Assembly (NCBI GenBank): GCA_009919005.1 | Contig: RGCW01000008.1 | Span: 1 to 32,048, forward strand | Length of the DNA: 32,048 bases | From: Candidatus Aquidulcis sp. | GTDB taxonomy: Bacteria > Chloroflexota > Limnocylindria > Limnocylindrales > Limnocylindraceae | Reading direction: 5' to 3' | In this document: positions 6,556 through 17,459 of the stretch, piece after piece | Layout of the letters: every line of letters begins with the position of its first letter | Numbering within the stretch: the stretch's first letter is position 1 | Position numbers and translations under genes: made by a program | The notes under the pieces: generated by a model | Told to the model about the DNA's origin: nothing | The model's database searches: none | The model's input: only the letters and a program-made list of their open reading frames with translations

Positions 6556-6853
6556 CTACGAGCCAAAGAGCGACGGCAACTCGCTCATCCGACGGATTGT
6601 AGGACGCAATCTCGTGCGTTCCCGCACGCTTGGCACGCCTCCCGCACCCGTGACCATTCCCTTCGACAAGGCACACCAGATGGTGCAAGCCCATAAGCGA
6701 TGGGACAAGGACGCTGACCACCTCGAACGACTTGGGCAGGAAGTGGAGGAGATGCTGTATGACCCTAATGTCGAGTGGGACTCGAAGCAGAAGAAGTTGA
6801 AGCGTCTCGTGAACACCATCAACACGACTGTTCTCAAACTAAAACACCTGTGA
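6548..6853 (+). CDS. Unknown helical protein (MADYEPKSDGNSLIRRIVGRN...)
   Basis: ORF trimmed to the ATG overlapping the upstream stop. Confidence 0.55.
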   Translation: MADYEPKSDGNSLIRRIVGRNLVRSRTLGTPPAPVTIPFDKAHQMVQAHKRWDKDADHLERLGQEVEEMLYDPNVEWDSKQKKLKRLVNTINTTVLKLKHL

Positions 6854-7938
6854 GTAGGTTCAAACAACCGATGGGCATCAGCGTCTTGGAAGCCGCCAAG
6901 CAACGCATCCACCACATCTACGACATCCACGACACAGTAGTAGTCCTATTCTCTGGGGGAAAGGACTCGCAGGTGGTGTTGCACCTCGTGTGGGAGGTAG
7001 CCAAGGAGCGTGGGCATAAGTTCGTCAATGTCCTGTATTTCCACGACGAGTTCACGCTGTCTCCTACCATAGACCTTATTCGGCACTACGCCTCGCTCCC
7101 GTGGGTGCGTATGCACCACTTCTGCATCCCGACAGTAGGTCTGCGGACAGTCGTGGACAAGCCCGTCGAGTTCGTGAATTGGGACAAGAAGCGTCCCAAC
7201 CTACGCCCAATCCCAGACTACGCCATCCGCCCGTCCGACGAGTTGTTCGAGGACAGGGATGTCTGGTTCACGAGGACGGAGGAGTTCTGCCTCCAATCGT
7301 TCGTGGGCAAGGTCGCACAGGTCAACGGGATTAGGGCGAGCGAGTCCCGCTTCCGCTGGCGTGGGTCGGTGAACAAACTCATCGAGAACTACATCAACGC
7401 CCCGCAGGACTTCAAGCGAGCCACGCTGTGCAAGCCCCTCTACGACTGGGAGGAGAACGATGTCCTCCGCTACCTGTGGGAGAACAAGATACAGTATTGC
7501 CGTATCTACGACTGGCAGATGTTCGCCAAGATGGACTTGCGGACATCGTCTTGGTTACACCCCGAGAAGATACGCCACTTGAAGAAACTGCGAGCCATCG
7601 ACCCGCACTTCTACGACCGCATCTTGGAAATCTTCCCCGACCAAGTCCTGCACGACCGCTACTCCGAGGAGATGGACAAGGACAAGGTCATCGCCGAATA
7701 CGCCAAGTCTTGGGAGACAATCAGGAAATACATCGAGGTTCACTACACGGACGGGACGACGAAGAACATCGCCCTGCACCGCCTCTACCAGATTTGGAAG
7801 TTGTCGAAGTCCGAGCGTAACGAGAGACTGAACTGCTACCCTCTGGACTATGTCCTCAAATACTTCATCCGTGGCGAGGTGCGGAAACTTCTCCTGCCCT
7901 TCCGCAAGGGACACAAGGAGTGGGCGAAACTTCTTTGA
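6850..7938 (+). CDS. PAPS reductase / PP-loop ATPase-like protein (IbrA-like)
   Basis: VVVLFSGGKDSQVVLHLVWE PP-loop; LCKPLYDWEENDVLRYLWEN. GTG at 6850 in GTGA overlap; ATG at 6871 is an alternative start. Confidence 0.8.
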   Translation: MSRFKQPMGISVLEAAKQRIHHIYDIHDTVVVLFSGGKDSQVVLHLVWEVAKERGHKFVNVLYFHDEFTLSPTIDLIRHYASLPWVRMHHFCIPTVGLRTVVDKPVEFVNWDKKRPNLRPIPDYAIRPSDELFEDRDVWFTRTEEFCLQSFVGKVAQVNGIRASESRFRWRGSVNKLIENYINAPQDFKRATLCKPLYDWEENDVLRYLWENKIQYCRIYDWQMFAKMDLRTSSWLHPEKIRHLKKLRAIDPHFYDRILEIFPDQVLHDRYSEEMDKDKVIAEYAKSWETIRKYIEVHYTDGTTKNIALHRLYQIWKLSKSERNERLNCYPLDYVLKYFIRGEVRKLLLPFRKGHKEWAKLL

Positions 7939-7941
7939 CTT

Positions 7942-8541
7942 ATGGAACCCGTAGAGAACATCAAATGGATTGAGTGCGACCGCCTCGTGGCTAACCACTA
8001 CAACCCGAACCGAGTGATGAACGCAGAGATGAACCTCATCGAGCGAAGCATCCTCCGCACGGGATGGATACAGCCCATCCTCGTGAACACGAACCTCACC
8101 ATCATCGACGGCTTCCACCGCTGGACGCTCTCACGCCTGTCCACGCAGATGCGGGAGAAGTATCACGGCAAGGTGCCGTGTGCCGTGCTTGATGTGAGCG
8201 ATGCCGAAGCGATGGTCATCACAGTCCGCATCAATCGTGCGAAGGGGACGCACCTTGCGTTCCGTATGAGCGAATACATCCGAGAGTTGCTGACGAAACA
8301 CAAGATGCCCATCGACGATTTGGCGAAGGACATCGGAGCGACCATCGAGGAAGTCGAACTGCTGATGCGTGCGGATGTGTTCGAGCGTAAGGATGTGTCG
8401 AACTGGACATACAGCGAAGCGTGGTTCCCTGCCGAGTCTGGACGCACACGGATGCCGTCGCTGTTCGACTTTGCCGAGGACGGGAAAGAGGTCATCAGAA
8501 ACCTCGATACACTTTACGAACCAGAAAAACAGGCGGAGTAG
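7942..8541 (+). CDS. ParB-like nuclease-domain protein (IbrB-like)
   Basis: LVANHYNPNRV...GWIQPILVNTNLTIIDGFHRW...RINRAKGTH is typical of a ParB/Srx fold; 3 nt after the PAPS-reductase-like gene. Confidence 0.75.
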   Translation: MEPVENIKWIECDRLVANHYNPNRVMNAEMNLIERSILRTGWIQPILVNTNLTIIDGFHRWTLSRLSTQMREKYHGKVPCAVLDVSDAEAMVITVRINRAKGTHLAFRMSEYIRELLTKHKMPIDDLAKDIGATIEEVELLMRADVFERKDVSNWTYSEAWFPAESGRTRMPSLFDFAEDGKEVIRNLDTLYEPEKQAE

Positions 8542-16346: not shown

Positions 16347-16353
16347 GGGGGAT

Positions 16354-16381
16354 GCGTAGATTAGCCCGACCCAATCTACGC
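16354..16381 (+). repeat. Perfect 9-bp inverted repeat (GCGTAGATT-N10-AATCTACGC) ending in a CACG-rich stretch
   Basis: Direct reading. Confidence 0.8.
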
Positions 16382-16446
16382 ACGCACGCACCCGCACGCA
16401 CTCACGCCCGAGCGTAGGCGTATGGGGTGGACAATGCCCAACGGCT

Positions 16447-16983
16447 ATGGAGAAGCGTGCTGAAACTGGAACAGGGGGTATCCCTCGGAGGGCGTTCAAT
16501 AACCCTCGGGCTATGGAGTCGCTTGGCTCGTCTAATCTGGCGAACTCGTTCGACCTACCTCGTGGAGTCGCATCGTCTTTGCAACGAGAGGTCTACCGAA
16601 ATGCTGGCGGTGACCCCGCTGTCCTAACCAAGATTGATGCCGACAACCGAGCAATCAGCAGAACTGCTCGTATTATGCGTGGTCAGTTGAAGGACGCTAC
16701 CGCATCTCGAAATAGTGCGAACAAAGCGGAAAACCAGCGTCAGATAGACAACGCCCGTAGGAACTACTCCGACATCGTCCAGCGGACGAACCAACTGAAC
16801 AACGACCTTGTGTCGAACATCGTCCGTCTTACTGCCTACGCCAACGCAAACCCAGCCCAAGCCGCCCCCGTCACCGCTCTGGCTAACAAACTTAAAGCCG
16901 ACTACGACGCTAACAACCGACGCATTGGCTCCCTTCGTGCTGGGTTCCTTCGGGCTACTGGTCGTGACCCTGCCTCTGCTTAA
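16447..16983 (+). CDS. Protein A with conserved N-terminal tag MEKRAETGTGGIPRRAFNNPRAMESLGSSNLANSF and helical C-terminal part
   Basis: Direct translation; N-terminus nearly identical to the next gene. Confidence 0.7.
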   Translation: MEKRAETGTGGIPRRAFNNPRAMESLGSSNLANSFDLPRGVASSLQREVYRNAGGDPAVLTKIDADNRAISRTARIMRGQLKDATASRNSANKAENQRQIDNARRNYSDIVQRTNQLNNDLVSNIVRLTAYANANPAQAAPVTALANKLKADYDANNRRIGSLRAGFLRATGRDPASA

Positions 16984-16994
16984 ATCCTACACTT

Positions 16995-17459
16995 ATGCTG
17001 AAACACGCCGAGACTGGCACGGGCGGTATTCCCCGTCGTGCCTTCAATAATCCGAGGGCGATGGAGTCTTTGGGTTCCAGTAACCTATCGAACTCGTTCG
17101 CCCTTGGCGACACCTCGCCATCGGCTCGGCTTGGGGGTAGGGAACTACCCGCATTGAACACGAGGGGTTTCGTCCAAGGCAAGGAGCGTCTCAACGCCGT
17201 GAAGCGTGAGATGCAGAAGGACATCCGTGCCATCCAGAAGGCGTTGCCTACGCTCGACCCAGATAGCATCGGGTCGAAGACCCTACGCTCCCGAGAGGTC
17301 ACCCTTCGTCAAGAGGTCGAAGTCCTCAATCGGCAAGTGAGGCAGGGAGGTTACTTGAACACGCCAGCCGCCAACCGCCAAGCCAACCCCAACGGCAACT
17401 TCTATGTCCCGAAGGAGTATGCTGACAGGGCTGGCATCAATACGACCCGCTCGTTCTGA
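16995..17459 (+). CDS. Protein B with conserved N-terminal tag MLKHAETGTGGIPRRAFNNPRAMESLGSSNLSNSF and different C-terminal part
   Basis: Direct translation. Confidence 0.7.
   Translation: MLKHAETGTGGIPRRAFNNPRAMESLGSSNLSNSFALGDTSPSARLGGRELPALNTRGFVQGKERLNAVKREMQKDIRAIQKALPTLDPDSIGSKTLRSREVTLRQEVEVLNRQVRQGGYLNTPAANRQANPNGNFYVPKEYADRAGINTTRSF

Follow-up and report, generated by a model that had tools for sequence, protein, structure and literature searches.

Two tandem phage genes with a common N-terminal peptide

Why should two neighbouring phage genes begin with nearly the same 35 residues and then encode unrelated proteins? The question is raised by gene A (16447..16983, forward strand; 178 aa, pI about 11) and gene B (16995..17459, forward strand; 154 aa, pI about 10.7) of the window, that is, the whole stretch of DNA analysed, a complete 32,048-base contig (C68) within a 1.1 Mb bin. 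A sequence-only reading had described them as tandem genes with a near-identical N-terminus of about 35 aa and unrelated C-termini, and both are present in the ORF list at these positions. The window represents one half of the genome of a tailed phage. It encodes exonuclease VIII, RecT, a single-strand binding protein, a RuvC-like resolvase and a primase/helicase, together with a DNA methylase, a PAPS reductase and a ParB-like protein, and over most of its length it is collinear with one half of the 61-kb IMG/VR contig IMGVR_UViG_3300014836_000771 (hereafter G061), its nearest relative. A search of the same bin for a capsid gene belonging to the window's phage found none.

The N-termini of A (MEKRAETGTGGIPRRAFNNPRAMESLGSSNLANSF; 35 codons, 16447..16551, forward strand) and B (MLKHAETGTGGIPRRAFNNPRAMESLGSSNLSNSF; 35 codons, 16995..17099, forward strand), referred to below as the tag, agree at 32 of 35 residues, beyond which the sequences are unrelated. 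When A was used as a query against its own complete genome, B was retrieved with E = 5e-15 through residues 2-39 of A only, and a search for similarity between the cargo parts of the two proteins found none. Since the likeness stops at residue 39, the full-length similarity expected of ordinary paralogs is absent between A and B.

At the DNA level the two tags are identical at 75 of 105 nt. The codon count of the sequence-only reading proved exact, with 10 identical codons, 22 synonymous codons and 3 amino-acid changes over 35 codons. With random synonymous recoding based on the codon usage of the window itself, 12.9 +/- 2.4 identical codons were expected among the 33 aligned codons and 9 were observed. 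Synonymous divergence is thus at least that of random recoding, so that conservation lies in the peptide, as had been proposed from the synonymous codons, which are no more alike than chance. The synonymous sites of the two tags are saturated, with selection acting on the peptide rather than on the DNA, and the two copies are either old or were kept different at the DNA level.

Family searches gave no confident match for either protein; A consists of the tag and a cargo without known family, and B of the tag and a folded C-terminal domain. In the AlphaFold2 model of B (built from three sequences), the C-terminal part is mostly above pLDDT 90, while the tag is predicted to be disordered (pLDDT below 50 at residues 1-13 and 21-41), which argues against its being part of a globular domain. 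The model had no significant match by Foldseek against the PDB and viral libraries and fitted no known fold, and the tags contain no hydrophobic segment. The tag had no tblastn match among phage isolates, and a tag alignment run against GTDB species genomes gave no confirmed relative. Weak tag-like matches to 126 genomes of the order (E 0.005-0.1) resemble noise, and weak matches of A residues 17-65 in host genomes were judged to be chance.

Tags are more alike within genomes than between them

In G061, three tandem genes carry the window's tag at the position matching A and B. Gene 1 stands in the place of A and joins the tag to a C-terminus unrelated to that of A, gene 2 is a full-length ortholog of B (73% identity) and gene 3 is a full-length paralog of B (44% identity); the full-length relation of B, gene 2 and gene 3 indicates that ordinary duplication occurs too. 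A DNA-pattern search of IMG/VR for the tag core GGIPRRAFN returned no contig other than G061.

Alignment of the five tags showed 30-32 of 33 residues alike within a genome and 25-27 of 33 between the window phage and G061 (1-3 differences against 6-8), with four positions fixed differently in the two phages and third codon positions near chance identity. The tag of B is nearer to that of A (31/33) than to that of its own ortholog (27/33). This is the pattern that would be expected if all copies within a phage fitted one partner that differs between phages. Elsewhere in G061, at about 33.9-38.4 kb (window orientation) between terminase and portal, there are few convincing ORFs and perhaps a tRNA cluster.

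Other tags in related phages

The window's tag is absent from four other related viruses, which have different ones; these came to light in a blind search for ORFs of one genome with a common N-terminus. G062 and G063, one virus from two samples, have M[AS]RG[YF]..[RK]SE (for example MARGYSQSRSE) on about 22 genes; G064 has MARG...GR.ARSE on about 14; the partial contig G065 has 5-6 genes with a tag of the G064 type; and G066 has MATRS...L.SD on about 25, mostly in one array at 49-63.5 kb. The start tetrapeptide MARG occurs 20 times in G062 and 14 times in G064, and MATR 22 times in G066, whereas the commonest start tetrapeptide of the untagged G132 and G133 occurs only 3 times. Tag lengths across the group are about 11-35 residues, and codons vary freely inside the MARG- and MATR-type tags as well. 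Tagged proteins thus number 2 in the window, 3 in G061 and about 5-25 in the four other relatives. The sequence-only reading had expected the tag to cap diverse C-termini, often in tandem; the relatives go beyond this, each one with a tag placing a version of its own on between 3 and about 25 proteins. The tag system is dispensable, as G132 and G133 share the head module yet have no tags. In G133 (IMGVR_UViG_3300042154_002686), a region at about 43-55 kb is rich in short stretches, on both strands, that resemble one another; these are apparently intergenic repeats and not protein tags.

Cargos were compared after removal of the first 20 (or 36) residues. The cargos of G062_22929 and G064_39798 are 64% identical, and the GNAT-like cargos of G064_6515 and G066_61121 59% identical, each pair under different tags. 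The cargo of G062_31557 is 42-44% identical to those of G064_31451 and G065_6144, and ART-like cargos of G062 and G066 are 24-32% identical, again with different tags. By eye, a HNHP...S..D region is common to G062_34115, G064_29594 and G066_58813 under three tags. Homologous cargos are therefore found under different tags in different phages, so that the tag belongs to the genome and not to the cargo. A tagged gene of G064 (G064_32368, L045:12371-13186) contains an internal tag-like stretch, SGGRAAKSE, at the point where its G065 ortholog stops, an arrangement that resembles a fusion of two tagged genes.

Most tagged proteins measure 120-350 aa, with at most one recognised domain each, and the majority of cargos belong to no known family. 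Among the exceptions are a SpoT/RelA-like HD hydrolase (TIGR00691, 1.6e-10; phrog_990, 3.7e-35; Pfam HD_4, 3.3e-06) and a probable GNAT (Pfam 0.0011, below the curated cut-off). A paralogous set of cargos shows, in alignment, R-G, S-F and E-x-E positions resembling the conserved R, S-[TF] and E-x-E of R-S-E class ADP-ribosyltransferases, ART-like cargos being present in G062 and G066; this ART-like assignment and a JAMM-like one are by motif and should be taken as putative, and PDB searches supported neither. For the ART-like cargo, a PDB profile search and Foldseek against the PDB gave no match, the model having a mean pLDDT of 67. A PDB sequence search returned a designed helical protein and chance matches only. 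In tblastn against isolates, two cargos and the GNAT-like cargo had no match, and the JAMM-like cargo had distant ones. A role of the cargos in anti-phage defence was set aside, as PADLOC matched none of them.

The linker gene of the head operon opens with the tag core

The relatives have a lambda-type head module comprising a GpA-type terminase, a gpW-like protein, a lambda-family portal, an S49 head maturation protease, an acidic scaffold, a linker gene between scaffold and coat, and a P22-like coat protein. The linker gene opens with the tag core of its own phage: MARGFGG in G062, MARGGVN in G064 and MATRRQA in G066. In G061 it starts MFQKHAE, where the tags read M..K[HY]AE. Such tag-core starts are seldom seen in other phages (4/2540, 0/2883 and 0/2695), and the linker of G132 and G133, phages with no tag family, begins MAGRTFY.

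Tagged genes also lie between the coat and head-tail connector genes of G062, G064 and G066. Most tagged genes of the group nevertheless sit in non-structural regions, and those of the window and G061 adjoin recombination genes, outside the head operon and among small genes. The PAPS-reductase-like and ParB-like pair of the window (6775-8541) is also found in G061, G062 and G066, with two tagged genes inserted between its members in G062. The scaffold measures 525-597 aa in the three tag-rich phages against about 334-394 aa where tags are few or absent, a difference that is only suggestive with the six phages G061, G062, G064, G066, G132 and G133. The longer scaffolds have an acidic middle segment in common. 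S-E or S-D stands at the end of the MARG and MATR tags, and the window tag has no such end; cleavage after the tag is weakly supported.

An element upstream of tagged genes

Pattern scanning located an element, GGTGGACA (16426..16433, forward strand), that ends 13 nt before the start codon of A. An element of this type also stands 16 nt ahead of G061 gene 1 and is present before genes that open the tagged clusters of G062, G064 and G065. Compared with untagged ORFs, T[TGA]GACA at 12-19 nt upstream was found at 8/15 tagged genes against 1/88 other ORFs in G064, at 9/23 against 9/150 in G062 and at 3/6 against 0/46 in G065; it was found at 0/27 tagged genes of G066. The idea that the element marks late genes was dropped: GGTTGACA lies 27-43 nt ahead of the scaffold, coat and primase genes alike, so the presence of the element does not tell when a gene is expressed. 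The 107-base gap before A also holds a perfect inverted repeat, TGCGTAGATT ... AATCTACGCA (window 16353-16382), with no T run; as RNA, the gap folds barely better than its shuffles (z -1.25).

A possible function in loading the head

Sequence comparison thus documents genome-specific tags, a multiplicity of cargos, tag exchange, selection at the protein level and members within the head operon. The 35-aa peptide may accordingly be described as a genome-specific, disordered N-terminal address tag, of which each tag-bearing phage would keep a single version on a set of otherwise unrelated proteins. By analogy with phage T4, virion loading seems the likeliest function, and we lean towards a model in which the tag loads host-takeover proteins into the prohead. 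The tag would most likely bind a prohead component of its own phage, either the scaffold or the scaffold-coat linker protein. Such binding would bring the tagged proteins into the head; they would then enter the host with the DNA and could act as early host-takeover factors, as the T4 internal proteins and Alt do, and the S49 head protease may remove the tag. The sequence-only reading had suggested a sorting, packaging or protease-recognition signal for virion cargo, or a shared motif for binding a host or phage partner. Its account is supported in part: the diverse C-termini and tandem arrangement bear it out, and neither full-length paralogy of A and B nor a globular tag was found, while the link to the head is drawn from the setting of the genes, the kind of cargo and the tag-like start of one head-operon gene.

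The main rival to virion loading is that the tag docks its proteins onto a partner inside the cell (a phage or host complex, a compartment, a chaperone or a modifying enzyme), the proteins being made after infection and never packaged. The non-structural setting of most tagged genes, with those of the window and G061 next to recombination genes, would suit such docking, and the likeness of tags within a genome demands a common partner without naming which. Docking in the cell would not account for tagged genes within the head operon or for the linker genes of four phages that open with the tag core, and we regard it as rather unlikely. A relic of ordinary paralogy, in which one duplicated family diverged in its C-termini and changed more slowly in its N-terminus, is improbable. 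B, gene 2 and gene 3 are indeed full-length paralogs, as are some ART-like cargos of G066, but the same tag caps cargos of clearly different families, different tags cap homologous cargos and tags are more alike within genomes than between them; for the tag-rich relatives, these comparisons already contradict it. It is more improbable still that the tag is an export signal for a host secretion system or another non-virion delivery route. Short, polar, disordered N-termini on diverse enzymes may recall exported effectors, but the missing hydrophobic segment speaks against Sec and Tat, related phages differ in their tags and some tagged genes are in the head operon. Finally, a conserved DNA element at the gene start (promoter, ribosome-binding or recombination site) that makes the proteins look alike was rejected as scarcely credible, since codons vary freely in the tags with third positions at chance identity, even though tagged genes have an upstream element in common in three relatives.

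A wider reading, on which we are evenly divided, is that of a private address code: each phage lineage would put its own label on up to about 25 injected effectors, the label would be read by the lineage's own head-assembly machinery, and a new effector would become usable after gaining the local label. The label would then be a genome-specific loading licence for cargo in lambda-type heads. If so, an N-terminal label alone would mark dozens of phage proteins of unknown function as virion-delivered effectors, making a large stock of 'hypothetical proteins' testable. The phages would also offer a natural experiment on the co-evolution of a targeting peptide and its receptor, and a source of new, small tags with which proteins could be loaded into lambda-type capsids.

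Comparison with known systems

To our knowledge, no lambda-type phage packages such cargo, and no proteomic data were found for this group of phages. Among isolated phages, Verrucomicrobia phage P8625 has the most similar capsid protein (34.5% identity); it likewise has a GpA-type terminase, a portal, a Clp/S49-like protease and a P22-like coat protein (PMC4642752). No repeated N-terminal tag was seen among its 52 annotated proteins.

The internal proteins of T4 reach the prohead core by means of N-terminal propeptides of 10-19 residues; the first ten residues of IPIII suffice for targeting, and three internal proteins, IPI-IPIII, carry a CTS (PMC9026906). As with the T4 CTS of IPI-IPIII and Alt, a short N-terminal peptide is common to proteins with divergent mature parts, the cargo is of host-takeover type (T4 Alt being an ADP-ribosyltransferase) and there is a head-assembly context; the window proteins are small and basic. 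Unlike T4 with its three internal proteins, this group has up to about 25 tagged proteins, and each related phage has its own tag. T4 also uses the gp21 prohead protease and its cleavage motif, whereas the relatives have a lambda C-like S49 protease, which might cut the tag. The S49 head maturation protease belongs to a family different from that of T4 gp21. We do not claim membership in the T4 CTS family, because the protease comes from a different family, sequence comparison gave no link and packaging is a proposal.

For P1 DarB, fewer than 30 N-terminal residues send a heterologous reporter to the capsid (PMC9024508, PMC12810830). The likeness, at the level of architecture, lies in the short N-terminal stretch and in a type of cargo that acts early in P1. 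The N-termini of the P1 Dar proteins have no consensus (PMC9024508), whereas an N-terminal consensus is the defining feature here. Polyvalent proteins of phages and plasmids carry ART and other enzymatic domains and are thought to be packaged in virions and injected (PMC5512222). They combine many domains in one long polypeptide, unlike the separate proteins of about 150-350 aa described here, each with its own tag and none with several disparate catalytic domains. The open-access literature yielded no account of genome-specific tags carried by 10-25 proteins, of homologous cargos exchanging tags or of tags of this kind in lambda-type heads. Set against the literature found, the architecture is known from T4 and P1, and the scale, the genome-specific tags, their exchange and the proposed setting in lambda-type heads appear to be new.
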